Below are positions 5,575 through 31,966 of a DNA stretch of 36,266 nucleotides, one piece after another. A model generated the notes under the pieces. It did no database searches. It was not told the DNA's origin and saw only the letters and a program-made list of their open reading frames with translations. Source of the DNA: an uncultured Acidobacteriota bacterium. GTDB taxonomy: Bacteria > Acidobacteriota > Blastocatellia > Pyrinomonadales > Pyrinomonadaceae. The stretch lies in NCBI GenBank assembly GCA_937863115.1, contig CALMEH010000201.1:1-36266 (forward strand), written 5' to 3'. Both the position numbers and the translations under genes were made by a program. Every line of letters starts with the position of its first letter. Position 1 is the stretch's first letter.

Positions 5575-6237
5575 TTAAACATCATTTTCCTTTATCAATA
5601 ATCCGCGCAATTTGAGCCGCGCTTTATGGAGTTGCGATTTTGATGTGCCGACCGAAATGCCCATCAAACGCGCTACTTCTTCGTGTTCGTAGCCTTGAAC
5701 GTCGTGCAAAATAAAGACGTTTTTATAACCGTTCGGAAGTTGTGCAACGGCATTTTTCAAAGCGATTTTATCAACCACGGGCATTTTGCGCGGATTTTCC
5801 GTTCCCGAAACGGTTTGTTCCGGCATATCGCCAGTTTCCGAAGTTTTTTCGCTTTTCACGCTTCGCCGCCGAAAGTGCATCAAAACCTGATTAACGGTCA
5901 TCCGATGCAACCACGTCGAAAAAGCCGAATCGCCGCGAAAACTGCCGACTTTTTTAAAAAGCTGGATAAAAACTTCCTGCGTCAAATCTTCGGCTTCCGT
6001 CTGCGAATTCGTCATCCGCAAACAAAGCGAATAAACGCGCCGATGATGGCGTTCGTAAATCATTTCAAACGCGGAAATATTACCTTTTGCCGCCTTTTGC
6101 GTCAAATCGAAATCGGACGCGTTCGTCTCGATAATTTCATTTTCGACTGCGACAGGAGTTGGAAAAAAAGACGCGGGCGCACTTTCCTCGTAAGAAACGG
6201 GAAGCGCGTCTTGCTCAAGCACCGAGGCTAAGTCCAT
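5575..6237 (-). CDS. ECF-family RNA polymerase sigma factor
   Basis: The 220-residue protein has a roughly 45-residue N-terminal extension, then sigma region 2 ([57 protein letters not shown]). A short linker leads to region 4 ([48 protein letters not shown]). Region 3 is absent, as usual for ECF factors. ATG 6237 is preceded by AGGAG five bases upstream, one of the few clear Shine-Dalgarno sites here. The zinc-finger anti-sigma gene next door is its likely partner. It would redirect RNA polymerase to envelope genes, perhaps including the two DUF4097 genes. Confidence 0.95.
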
Positions 6238-27787: not shown

Positions 27788-28222
27788 ATGGCGATAGATA
27801 ATCAAACAGCGTTCTTAAAACTTCTTCGTTGGTGTGAACATTATCCGCACGAACCGAGCGAGGCAAATTATAAAACAATGTATGGCGGCGGAACTTTTGA
27901 AAGTTTTGACGATCATCCGAGAAAATACGTTACAAAATGGGGAAAAACTTCTTCTTCTTCGGGAGCATATCAAATCAACATTAAAACTTACGATGATTTT
28001 AAGGAAAGGCTCGGATTAAAAGATTTTACGCCCGAATCGCAAGATAAAATTGCGCTGGCAATCATCAAACAAGCCGGAGCCGTTTCGTTAATTGATGAAG
28101 GAAAAATCGAAGATGCGATAAAAAAATTAACAGGTCGTTGGAGTTCGCTGCCCGGCGGAATTCATTCGAGAATTCAAATGAACGCGGCGTTGGCTAAGTT
28201 TACAGAATATCAGAAAGGTTAA
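27788..28222 (+). CDS. Lambda R-like endolysin (GH104 lytic transglycosylase family), isolated
   Basis: The 144-residue protein aligns along its length with bacteriophage lambda endolysin R: AFLKLLRWCEHYP (Glu17 at the position of the catalytic Glu of lambda R), GGGTFESFDDHPRKYVT, SSSSGAYQINIKTYDDF, ERLGLKDFTPESQDKIALAII, and WSSLPGGIHSRIQ. The family cleaves the MurNAc-GlcNAc bond of peptidoglycan. There is no signal peptide, and no holin, spanin or other phage gene nearby. It has a strong Shine-Dalgarno site and ends in its own terminator, so it is a single-gene unit. It may be a domesticated phage gene; how it reaches the wall is unknown. Confidence 0.9.
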   Translation: MAIDNQTAFLKLLRWCEHYPHEPSEANYKTMYGGGTFESFDDHPRKYVTKWGKTSSSSGAYQINIKTYDDFKERLGLKDFTPESQDKIALAIIKQAGAVSLIDEGKIEDAIKKLTGRWSSLPGGIHSRIQMNAALAKFTEYQKG

Positions 28223-28254: not shown

Positions 28255-28554
28255 TTAAACCTTGTCGCTTAGAAGTTGGTTGAGCAGAAAAAAATCTTTG
28301 TGTTGATTGCTCAGGAGCGCGTGGGCGAGTTCGTAGAGCGGCATCGGGATTTCCGTGCGTTCGATTTTTTCTTCCGATTGCGGATAATGCGCGTAGAATT
28401 CGATTTCCGACGCACAAAACTCGCAGGTTTCCAGATGGCGACGAATTGGTTGCGCGTCTTTTTCCGCAACTTCGCCGTTTTGAAACGTCAGAAGTCTTTG
28501 CGATGAAGGGCAAATTGCGTTTTTACGAAAAGTAATCATTTTTATCGAAAACAT
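28255..28554 (-). CDS. Small cytoplasmic zinc-finger (ZAS-like) protein
   Basis: The 99-residue protein has Cys15 and H40-x3-C44-x2-C47 (HLETCEFC), the zinc arrangement of anti-sigma ZAS domains, but no membrane helix or extracytoplasmic part. The C-terminal half has PMPLYELAHALLSNQHKDFFLLNQLL, which looks helical and is unfamiliar to me. It is divergent from the sigma-like gene at 29066 across a 511-base region, so it may regulate that protein. ATG 28554 is used; ATG 28539 (94 residues) is an alternative. Function by motif and position only. Confidence 0.72.
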   Translation of the reverse strand: MFSIKMITFRKNAICPSSQRLLTFQNGEVAEKDAQPIRRHLETCEFCASEIEFYAHYPQSEEKIERTEIPMPLYELAHALLSNQHKDFFLLNQLLSDKV

Positions 28555-29065
28555 AGCTTTAGGCTTTTTTTAGCGCATTTTCGCAAGGTTCGCCTTTTGA
28601 AACCGGCGAATTGTCGTTTTTGCGTTACAACAAAAATAAATCCGTAATGCCCCAAACCTTCCAAAACTTATCCGATAATTTTCAAAAAAAGTTTTTGACG
28701 AAATTCGTCAATTTTGTCTAATTTATTGTAAATGTTGAGTTTAGCTTATAAATTAAACATTGTTTATGAAAGTAAAAAATAGTTGCCCAAATCTGAAATA
28801 ACTGTTAATATCTTAATTGTGGGTTGGTAAGACGTAAAAATCCTGCTGATCTCTCGCCAAATTAACTGCTCTGCTCGGCGGTTAATTTACAGAATTTTTT
28901 CTATACAATCTCTAAAAAGCGGAAGATTCGTTGGGAAATAAAAGCCGGATTCGTGAGGAAATTTCAATCGGGAGGAAATTTTTTCGCAAAAAGCGGAGCG
29001 GTTTTCGTGTTCCCAAAACACAGAAGCAAATAAATCACAAACAAAAAAGTCGGATAGGTCAATTT
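28555..29065. other. 511-base intergenic region with palindrome and hairpin
   Basis: No convincing gene is seen. A palindrome TTGACGAA-A-TTCGTCAA lies at 28695-28711. A hairpin (AAATTAACTGC 28859-28869 with GCGGTTAATTT 28878-28888) is followed by a T run near 28900, so it could be a leader attenuator. TATACAAT at 28902-28909 is a possible -10 box. A TTG-started extension (28931) of the sigma-like protein would add 45 basic residues unlike the rest, so this stretch is treated as leader. Confidence 0.5.
28695..28711. promoter_or_regulatory. 17-bp palindrome, possible operator
   Basis: TTGACGAA and TTCGTCAA flank a single central A in the gap between the divergent zinc-finger and sigma-like genes. 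A perfect 8-bp half-site pair is typical of a dimeric repressor site, and its left half resembles a -35 hexamer. No regulator is assigned. Confidence 0.4.
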
Positions 29066-30205
29066 ATGAGCGAAAATAAACAGCAGGGACGTTTGCCGAA
29101 AAGCATCCAAAATCGCCAGATAAAGGTTGGAAAATGGACGGCAAGCCTCAAGGTTTCGGATGTTAATCAAATTTGGACGGAACTTCATCGCATAGTTTCG
29201 TCGCATCCGTTAGTCCGCGCTTCAAAACGCGCCGGATTTCTGGTCGAAGAAGGTAAGTCTAATGCTTACACGGATATGACGCAAGAACTTTTCGTAGCTT
29301 TGCTTAGCAAAGAACGCTTTCAGCATTATCTGGACACGGAAATGACGGACGCGGAAATCGAAGCGGAAATCTCGCAAATCGAACTCACTAATTTACTCAC
29401 CGCCGAACCTCGCAAACGCTATCCCGAATCCAATCGTTTGGCGCGAAGAATTTCTACTTTAATTCAAACAAGTAAAACATTTAAGCGATTCGACAATATC
29501 GGAATCGAAGTTCATCGCCGTCTGGCTGACCGACAATACGGTTTGGCGGAATGGAAAAACGACAAAACGCGCCGCAATGTGCAAGAAATGGACGAGCGTG
29601 TGAAAGTTGTTTCGTTTCACAGCCGCGATACGCGAATGGTCGGTTGCACGGGCGACGCGCAAATCGTTATCAGCAATGTTGACCTCGAAAAATTAATTAT
29701 CAAAGTTTTCAAAGCAGTTGATTCGCCCGTAGATGTGCGTTCATTGCGTTCGTTTGTGATGTCGCGTCTGCCGGTGATGGATATTTATCTCGTGCCGATT
29801 GGCTCAGGTTCGGACGACGATGAAAATAATAAATACGAATACGATCCGGCGGATACGCGCGAAACGCCCGAAGCCAATGTTTTGCGCCGCGAGGCGGAAG
29901 TTACGGCAGTCGGGTTTGTTGATGATTTTCTGACGAATTTAAATAAATCGGTGCGCGGCAAAGAAAAGCAATACAATCGGATGATAAATGTTTTGTGGTA
30001 TTGTTATTTGATTTCCGACAGCGGAACGCAGCTCGAAGTTGCCGAAATGCTTGGGGTTTCGGATTCGCTCGTGTCGGATTACCGCAAACGCATCGAATCG
30101 AATTTGCAATCGCTTTCGTTTAACGGTGTCAATGAAGCGCGTCAATTTGAAAAAGCCTTGCGTCTCAAAGTGCGTGATTTGATTGCGGTCGAAGTTGCCG
30201 CCTAG
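29066..30205 (+). CDS. Diverged sigma-70-like / HTH DNA-binding protein
   Basis: From ATG 29066 the protein has 379 residues. Residues 34-90 resemble sigma region 2 (WTELHRIVSSHPLVRASKRAGF, YTDMTQELFVALL, compare DLTQEVF in the ECF factor at 5575). Residues about 320-350 form a region-4-like helix-turn-helix (TQLEVAEMLGVSDSLVSDYRKRI). Between them are some 230 residues including an acidic linker (GSGSDDDENNKYEYD) that no standard sigma factor has. It precedes the second polymerase gene, so it may control the second polysaccharide set; the small zinc-finger protein opposite could be its partner. A plain transcription factor is the alternative. Confidence 0.6.
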   Translation: MSENKQQGRLPKSIQNRQIKVGKWTASLKVSDVNQIWTELHRIVSSHPLVRASKRAGFLVEEGKSNAYTDMTQELFVALLSKERFQHYLDTEMTDAEIEAEISQIELTNLLTAEPRKRYPESNRLARRISTLIQTSKTFKRFDNIGIEVHRRLADRQYGLAEWKNDKTRRNVQEMDERVKVVSFHSRDTRMVGCTGDAQIVISNVDLEKLIIKVFKAVDSPVDVRSLRSFVMSRLPVMDIYLVPIGSGSDDDENNKYEYDPADTRETPEANVLRREAEVTAVGFVDDFLTNLNKSVRGKEKQYNRMINVLWYCYLISDSGTQLEVAEMLGVSDSLVSDYRKRIESNLQSLSFNGVNEARQFEKALRLKVRDLIAVEVAA

Positions 30206-30210
30206 CGGAA

Positions 30211-30355
30211 GTAAAAAGTGAAAAGTAAAAAGTAAAAAATTTAATTGCATCTCACGATTGCAAATTTACAATACTGTCGCTTTAGCCTTACAATAAATTC
30301 ATTCCCCAACATTTCTTAACTTTTTACTTTTTACTTTTTACTTTTTACTTTTCCA
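30211..30355. repeat. Heptad repeat pair (GTAAAAA / TTTTTAC)
   Basis: Units GTAAAAA, GTGAAAA, GTAAAAA, GTAAAAA (30211-30238) lie five bases after the stop of the sigma-like gene. Four exact TTTTTAC units (30321-30348) and TTTTCCA run to the base before ATG 30356. The sets are reverse complements around an 82-base spacer, and the second set fills the place of the ribosome binding site. Confidence 0.88.
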
Positions 30356-31966
30356 ATGTCTGCCAACAGCAACACAAGTTCCGATTATCAAACGCTTCGC
30401 AAACAAACGAATGGCGCGAACGGCTGTGGGCAGGAAACATTAAAACCGTTAAAGCCGATAGAAGAAATTTTAGTTCCCGAAAGTTTAATCAATCCATATA
30501 AACTTCCGTCCGAAGTTGTTGCGGTGCAAACCGAAACGGCAGCGACGGATTTTTTTACGCCTCGAATTCAGACGGAAACACCTGAAATCAAAGCGGAAAT
30601 TCCTGAAAAAGAAGAACTCACATTTGCCGAAGAATCGAAACGAAAAAAAGAAGAAAAAGCTGACGACCGCGACCGCGAGCTTTTGAGCGGCGAGCGTTGG
30701 CTCAAGCGAAACGGACATACTTTGACATATTTCGGGCTTTATCTTTTTTCGATTTTGGTGCTTTTTCGCCCTTACGAATTGATTCCAGGACTCGGATTTC
30801 TCTCGACATCGGCATTTATCGTGGCGATGGCGACGTTGGTAATTTATATTCCGACGCAGTTCACGACCGAAGGAAATATTTCTGTTTTCCCGACAGAAGT
30901 AAAATGTATTTTCGCAATGACTCTGATTGCTTTAATCACGATGCCGATTGCGAAAAGTCCGCCGACGGCTTGGGAAACTTTTAACGATACGTTCGTCAAA
31001 GCCGTTTTGATGTTTGTCGTAATGGTCAATGTTTTGCGAACCCGAAAGCGTTTGATGGGGTTGATTTGGCTTTCGCTGGCAGTGGCGTTTTATTTGAGTT
31101 ATGTTGCACTCGGAATGTTTATGCGTGGCGAACTCAACGCCGAAGGTTATCGCGTAGATGTTGGCGTAAAAGGGCTTTTCGGCAATCCGAACGATTTGGC
31201 GTTGCATCTCGTTACGATGATTCCGCTTGCCGTTTGTTTAGGAATTGCCACGAAAAGCCGCGTAATGCGTTTTGTTTATTTTGCGGCAGCAATTCTTTTT
31301 GTTTCGGCAAATACGGTAACATATTCACGCGGCGGTTTTTTGGGTTTGGTTGCCGCATCTGCCGTGATGGTTTGGAAACTCGGTCGCCGTCAGCGTTTAG
31401 GTGTGAGCATTGTTTCAATCGTTGTCGGCACTGTGTTTGTCTTGCTTGCGCCGGGAAATTACGGCGTAAGAATTCTTTCGATTTTCGGGCTTGCGGCTGA
31501 TCCGGTCGGTTCATCAGACCAACGCAAAGAATTGCTCGAACGCTCGATAATCGTGTCTTTGAGAAACCCTTGGGGCATCGGCATCGGAAATTTTCCGATT
31601 GTCGGCGTTCGCAATCTGGTAACGCATAATTCATTTACGCAAGTTTCTTCGGAACTCGGAATTTTAGGTTTGTTGGCGTATTTGATATTTATGATTAGTC
31701 CGTTTCGCAAACTCGGCGCAATCGAACGGACGCTTTTTAAGAAAGATGAGACCGATTGGTTCTATTATCTTTCTATCGGCTTGCAAGCGAGTCTGGTCGG
31801 TTATATGGTTTCGAGCTTTTTCGTGTCGGTGGCATATAATTGGTTTATCTATTATCTGGTTGCTTACGCGGTTGCCTTAAGAAGAATTTACCAAATCGAA
31901 AAAGGTTTAGGCGAAGGCGTTAAACCCGAACCGCTTTGGAAAAAAAATTTTGAGTCCACGCTTTAG
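30356..31966 (+). CDS. O-antigen ligase/polymerase family protein, second copy, with long N-terminal cytoplasmic region
   Basis: The 536-residue protein has an N-terminal region of about 120 residues, charged and of low complexity (EEELTF-like Glu/Lys stretches, EESKRKKEEKADDRDRELL), before its first membrane helix (FGLYLFSILVLFRPYEL). The rest has about 10-12 helices and the family features GNPNDLALHLVTMIPLAVCLG, TYSRGGFLGLVAASAVM and GIGNFPIVGVRNLVTHNSFTQVSSELGILG. It may polymerise a second glycan or ligate chains. The last codons and the stop TAG (31964-31966) are made by a dispersed repeat, so the natural C-terminus may have been altered. Confidence 0.88.
   Translation: MSANSNTSSDYQTLRKQTNGANGCGQETLKPLKPIEEILVPESLINPYKLPSEVVAVQTETAATDFFTPRIQTETPEIKAEIPEKEELTFAEESKRKKEEKADDRDRELLSGERWLKRNGHTLTYFGLYLFSILVLFRPYELIPGLGFLSTSAFIVAMATLVIYIPTQFTTEGNISVFPTEVKCIFAMTLIALITMPIAKSPPTAWETFNDTFVKAVLMFVVMVNVLRTRKRLMGLIWLSLAVAFYLSYVALGMFMRGELNAEGYRVDVGVKGLFGNPNDLALHLVTMIPLAVCLGIATKSRVMRFVYFAAAILFVSANTVTYSRGGFLGLVAASAVMVWKLGRRQRLGVSIVSIVVGTVFVLLAPGNYGVRILSIFGLAADPVGSSDQRKELLERSIIVSLRNPWGIGIGNFPIVGVRNLVTHNSFTQVSSELGILGLLAYLIFMISPFRKLGAIERTLFKKDETDWFYYLSIGLQASLVGYMVSSFFVSVAYNWFIYYLVAYAVALRRIYQIEKGLGEGVKPEPLWKKNFESTL

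Follow-up and report, generated by a model that had tools for sequence, protein, structure and literature searches.

ECF (Group IV) sigma factors have roughly 200 residues, and their genes are usually co-transcribed with those of their anti-sigma factors. Between regions 2 and 4 of these proteins lies a linker that has fewer than 50 residues and is not conserved (PMC8103513). Some of them, including ECF41, ECF42, ECF56 and CorE/ECF238, carry an extra conserved domain beside the sigma core, and the extra domains of known ECF factors are attached at the N- or C-terminus (reviewed in PMC8999054). In Group III factors (sigma 2-3-4), regions 2 and 4 are separated by a segment of folded length, and region 4 is preceded by an acidic stretch. 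On the side of the inhibitors, the ZAS or class I proteins (the N-domain of ChrR, RsrA, RslA, RsiW) share CHCC zinc ligands, a three-helix bundle and a separate fourth helix. Class I anti-sigma domains bind region 4 through the bundle and region 2 through the fourth helix (PMC7406223).

Two divergent genes of an uncultured member of the Pyrinomonadaceae (Acidobacteriota) recall such a sigma/anti-sigma pair, with differences in both the architecture of the larger protein and the arrangement of the genes. With a probability of about 0.7, they encode a sigma factor of unusual build and its soluble zinc-binding anti-sigma factor. A first-pass annotation of the window (the whole stretch of DNA analysed, 36,266 nucleotides) had proposed open reading frames for a 99-residue and a 379-residue protein, and both were found as it gave them:

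28255..28554, minus strand: zinc-protein gene, 99 aa, soluble ZAS (class I) anti-sigma factor
29066..30205, plus strand: sigma-like gene, 379 aa, sigma-70-family-like with a large insert
29135..29422, plus strand: sigma region 2-like part, residues 24-119, placed by hhalign and, in relatives, by TIGR02937
29270-29311, plus strand: region 2.2 motif TDMTQELFVALLSK, residues 69-82
29423..29863, plus strand: insert, residues 120-266, about 147 residues, with no detected relative
29801-29863, plus strand: acidic stretch of the insert, residues 246-266
29864..30121, plus strand: sigma region 4-like part, residues 267-352, placed by hhalign and TIGR02937
30017-30115, plus strand: HTH of the region 4-like part, residues ~318-350

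The N-terminus of the relatives matches the ATG at 29066 of the sigma-like gene; an alternative TTG start at 28931 is possible. The gene is present in one copy in its own genome. A standard ECF sigma factor gene (Sigma70_r2, r4_2) is found in the same window, at 5575-6237 on the minus strand.

The sigma-like protein was compared by hhalign with a reference profile of 29 ECF factors from the same genome. Its N-terminal part scored 30.9, where 100 column shuffles reached at most 24.1, and its C-terminal part 36.2, where they reached at most 19.9; the middle part was at chance in the same comparison. In the best two alignments, ECF region 4 is matched by residues 318-350 and region 2.2 by residues 69-82, the region 2 assignment being a short alignment of 14 columns in which the ECF counterpart of TDMTQELFVALLSK is DLTQ[DE]VF, and regions 2.2 and 4 follow each other in the right order. 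Since both ECF alignments exceed their shuffled controls, the region-2-like DMTQELFVALL (residues 70-80) and the region-4-like HTH picked out in the first-pass annotation can be taken as real, as can the wide separation that it described: about 236 residues lie between the two, the acidic stretch included. The PE..L..E lead-in before region 4 also aligns with that of one ECF factor encoded in the same genome. TIGR02937 matches region 4 in 47 of 50 members of the sigma-like family and, in the more distant relatives L085, L090 and L095, covers both regions while skipping the insert (residues 46-338 in L085, E=1.2e-6). Against curated family libraries the 379-residue protein itself gave region-4 or HTH-type matches only, all under the cut-offs, and no curated sigma cut-off was reached by it or by the matches of its relatives.

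The AF2 model of this protein has an overall pLDDT of 60 and is confident at residues 24-112 and 268-376. Its best-ranked structural matches are sigma factors, so that the unrelated fold which would have spoken against the first-pass proposal was not found, but the scores are individually weak: the top Foldseek rows are sigma subunits, each with E of about 0.1, and the VIA-align Z of 6 to 7.6 falls in a range that chance arrangements can reach. The sigma assignment therefore rests on the sequence profiles, by which both regions were placed, with structure as weak support. Neither the protein nor its profile nor the insert gave a useful match in searches of solved structures. Homology thus supports the 379-residue protein as a putative divergent factor of the sigma-70 family.

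What sets this protein apart is the insert, which, the acidic stretch excepted, is about as conserved as the sigma regions: in the same broad alignment, conservation is 0.58-0.66 over the insert, 0.35 in the acidic stretch, and 0.64 and 0.61 in the two sigma parts. The insert has zero matches in Pfam, NCBIfam, PHROGs and the PDB sequences, and AF2 gave no resolved structure for it. About 147 conserved residues thus stand between regions 2 and 4, as against fewer than 50 non-conserved ones in ECF factors; the spacing is off the ECF standard, as first claimed, and the sigma-like protein is therefore not filed as an ECF factor as defined. It differs from these factors also in its length of 379 residues and in the orientation of its gene, which is divergent from the anti-sigma gene. 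It resembles them in the region 2.2 motif and the region 4 HTH, present in order, and in being paired with a ZAS anti-sigma gene, and although outside the ECF definition it may work like an ECF factor. It shares an extra conserved domain with ECF41, ECF42, ECF56 and CorE/ECF238, but here the domain lies between regions 2 and 4 and is accompanied by an anti-sigma gene. A literature search, chiefly of open-access papers, turned up no description of an extra domain at this position, between sigma regions 2 and 4.

The 99-residue partner belongs to the soluble anti-sigma factors of the ZAS kind (class I). It is read in this way because of its invariant ligands, its four-helix layout, its structural matches to anti-sigma proteins and the paralogs that stand beside ECF genes. 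The features concerned are:

28510-28512, minus strand: zinc ligand C15, invariant
28435-28437, minus strand: zinc ligand H40, invariant
28423-28425, minus strand: zinc ligand C44, invariant
28414-28416, minus strand: zinc ligand C47, invariant
28309..28344, minus strand: fourth helix, residues 71-82, with conserved PxPLxxLAxxLL

The ZAS motif attributed to this protein at the outset is complete, with the CHCC tetrad (C, then H-x3-C-x2-C) invariant in 53 relatives. AF2 (pLDDT 77) predicts helices at residues 18-25, 31-43 and 45-56, then a flexible stretch and a helix at residues 71-82, that is, a three-helix bundle with a separate fourth helix. By analogy with the class I domains, this fourth helix is expected to contact sigma region 2. 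The structural matches listed are all anti-sigma proteins (ChrR, RslA, RsiW, RskA, DdvA), with Z of 3 to 7, and the family libraries gave zf-HC2 (E=0.007) and RsrA (E=2e-4). Weaker matches of the zinc-protein profile in the same genome directly adjoin ECF genes in five cases out of six. The protein is soluble like RsrA and ChrR and, unlike ChrR, has no extra sensor domain. It is further distinguished from the described ZAS proteins by its partner, a long-spacer sigma protein, and by forming a separate conserved family, which has an invariant FxKxxxCP start.

A tblastn-type search over 145 related genomes, 89 of them Pyrinomonadaceae, found the sigma-like protein in 80 of the 89 and, at 33-47% identity, in two other families of the Blastocatellia. 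A profile search of 297 Acidobacteriota genomes found no member of the sigma-like family outside the Blastocatellia, and a GTDB-wide scan with short peptides, which detects close relatives only, gave 54 loci, all in Acidobacteriota and many labelled Pyrinomonadaceae. Both genes are present in 78 of the 89 Pyrinomonadaceae genomes and neither in 9, with the sigma-like gene alone in 2 and the zinc protein alone in none, so that 87 have both or neither. The genomes with neither gene are 71-90% complete; as these assemblies are incomplete and the genes are neighbours, the joint absence in the 9 genomes may partly be assembly loss. Besides the window, 59 loci were fetched (some of them sharing a genome), and in all 59 the sigma-like gene has the zinc gene beside it in divergent orientation; the pair is kept where fadD is missing and where a convergent Ser/Thr kinase gene or other genes take the place of the polysaccharide set. 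Together with the co-occurrence across genomes, this bears out the pairing suggested by the first-pass annotation. In a locus from another family (L085) the pair is kept with the genes 80 bp apart, and in most relatives outside the Pyrinomonadaceae no zinc gene lies next to the sigma-like gene. At L144 (positions 122-1647, contig C4 of genome G000) there is a further sigma-like gene (276 aa) with a long segment between its ends, followed by a zinc anti-sigma-like gene.

The DNA between the two genes contains the following features:

28637..28666, minus strand: motif upstream of the zinc gene, TTTTGGAA-N10-ATTAnnGATTTA, conserved, candidate promoter
28695..28711, no strand assigned: 17-bp palindrome, exact here, lineage-specific
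28783..28812, plus strand: promoter-like site of the sigma-like gene, TTGCCC-N17-TAATAT, with TG before the -10
28859..28888, plus strand: leader hairpin AAATTAAC ... GTTAATTT, covarying, with a T run at 28892-28901

The promoter-like site of the sigma-like gene recurs, as the pattern TTGCYC-N17-TAnYAT with TG before its second half, in 50 of 60 intergenic regions. Among 60 genomes, 22 of the 25 exact matches to this pattern fall at the sigma-like locus (G004 being counted by its zinc gene); being nearly confined to the locus, the pattern is peculiar to it rather than the mark of a regulon. The TTTTGGAA-N10-ATTAnnGATTTA motif occurs in the 60 genomes at this locus only, and it could be the target of the sigma-like protein itself. 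Upstream of the downstream Wzy gene, both sites are absent save for one weak match. With the two motifs practically confined to the sigma/zinc locus, the idea of a regulon motif was dropped and no regulon is proposed.

The palindrome is present exactly as first described; 13 out of 300 shuffled sequences also produced a palindrome with 8-bp arms. Its closest counterparts in 59 relatives differ at 5 or more positions, which rules out a conserved operator and makes the palindrome a poor operator candidate. Hairpins with T runs, of which the first-pass annotation named one, also exist: the palindrome read on the minus strand forms one, and a better supported one lies at 28859-28888, in the leader of the sigma-like gene. 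This leader (28812-28905, plus strand) has two hairpins at its start, the second of them covarying and with the T run. In a covariation test made on the leader hairpin as named beforehand, 22 cells had both sides changed, compared with 10.5 in shuffles, and over their first 90 nt the leaders fold more favourably than shuffled sequences, with a mean z of -1.63. RNAalifold found no structure in a sequence-based alignment of the leaders, and the leader has no match in Rfam. It looks like an attenuator or the end of a small transcript.

Beyond the sigma-like gene begins a polysaccharide set:

30356..31966, plus strand: Wzy_C/O-antigen ligase-type gene (Pfam PF04932, E=2e-10), first of the polysaccharide set

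The link to this set was part of the original proposal and holds within the window, where the sigma-like gene is directly upstream of the Wzy_C/O-antigen-ligase gene and of glycosyltransferases; it extends to only about two thirds of the relatives, a Wzy-type gene being downstream in about 35 of the 54 loci with enough sequence. Copies in other families are near glycosyltransferases, XrtA-type polysaccharide deacetylase or FemAB-like genes (translations read by eye). The pair and the polysaccharide genes have no promoter motif in common. Control of polysaccharide by the sigma-like protein is likely but unproven. Loci in which the polysaccharide set is absent often have a convergent Ser/Thr protein kinase-like gene, of about 810 aa, downstream of the sigma-like gene (L047, L051, L052, L054, L064, L067, L070, L072, L081 and L084). 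In L089 and L090, from another family, ExeA-like ATPase and possible kinase genes are upstream of the sigma-like gene, with glycosyltransferase genes nearby. In the window, the gap between the sigma-like and Wzy genes (30206-30355) holds an imperfect inverted repeat of GTAAAAA / TTTTTAC units, which is not found in the relatives printed, and a 144-aa lysozyme-like ORF (by eye; no Pfam match) occupies 27788-28222 on the plus strand, between fadD and the zinc gene.

The same data could be read in other ways. The large protein might descend from a sigma factor without working as one any longer. It would then regulate by binding DNA with its HTH, the insert would act as the sensor, and DNA binding would be under the control of the zinc protein. 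Such a reading would accommodate a region 4-like HTH that is far better supported than region 2, weak matches of generic HTH families, and a sigma-2-like part that has extra residues and is without the usual ECF 2.3/2.4 tryptophan. Region 2.2, however, is among the most conserved parts of the protein, with D70, Q73 and L75 fully or almost fully conserved in alignment A3. This motif contacts core polymerase in known sigma factors, and its conservation is hard to reconcile with a loss of polymerase binding; a regulator of this kind is thus considered unlikely. Another account retains the sigma function and sees in the protein an ordinary Group III-type factor, whose insert would be a diverged sigma-3 domain plus finger. 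A segment of folded length separating regions 2 and 4 is a Group III trait, as is the acidic stretch ahead of region 4, and by eye the order of residues 185-265 (an HTH-like segment, then the acidic stretch) resembles sigma 3 followed by the sigma finger. Against this, sigma 3 is about half as long as the insert, the resemblance of region 4 and of its lead-in is to ECF factors, and no sigma-3 similarity was detected in the insert, which compared at chance level with a profile of 22 Blastocatellia RpoD-type sequences that is itself narrow (Neff 2.7). An identification of the insert with sigma 3 is unsupported by that comparison, and the Group III-type account seems rather improbable.

It could also be supposed that the two genes are neighbours and not partners, the zinc protein serving another ECF factor and the gene order persisting fortuitously or because the two share promoter DNA. 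More than 40 ECF factors are encoded in the genome, and the zinc gene is not adjacent in most relatives outside the Pyrinomonadaceae. That supposition is nevertheless very improbable: the adjacency survives the loss of other neighbours, the genes are together or both absent in all but two of the 89 Pyrinomonadaceae genomes, and the pair recurs in another family at the different spacing seen in L085.

If the pair is a sigma factor with its anti-sigma factor, the large protein probably attaches to core RNA polymerase by its region 2 and probably recognises promoters with regions 2 and 4. The zinc protein probably keeps it inactive, with the three-helix bundle on region 4 and the C-terminal helix on region 2, until a cytoplasmic signal (redox, metal or ligand) would bring about release. 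The usual sigma/anti-sigma pairs are co-transcribed, whereas the genes here are divergent and each has its own conserved promoter-like site, so that the ratio of inhibitor to sigma factor could be set separately. The insert would either stand in for the sigma-3/linker elements within the polymerase cleft or be a sensor domain, and the targets probably include surface polysaccharide genes. The sequences establish the homologies, the insert, the pairing and the conserved DNA sites, whereas binding to polymerase, inhibition, signal and targets are inferred. It is suggested tentatively, at somewhat short of even odds, that the insert represents a novel domain, so far met in the Blastocatellia only, and that it sets this protein apart as a separate class of the sigma-70 family. 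In such a factor two ends of ECF type would flank a conserved domain that responds to a signal or extends into the cleft of the polymerase, and a zinc anti-sigma factor with a transcript of its own would hold it in check.

The locus represents a real variant of the sigma/anti-sigma theme, and apparently an undescribed one. As a short, unconserved linker is part of the definition of ECF factors, classification pipelines built on this rule would omit the sigma-like family. A conserved domain at the very place where the linker enters the polymerase active site and RNA exit channel would let one ask how far a sigma factor can change there and yet still work. For the Pyrinomonadaceae, a family of common, hard-to-grow soil bacteria, the pair is a candidate dedicated regulator.
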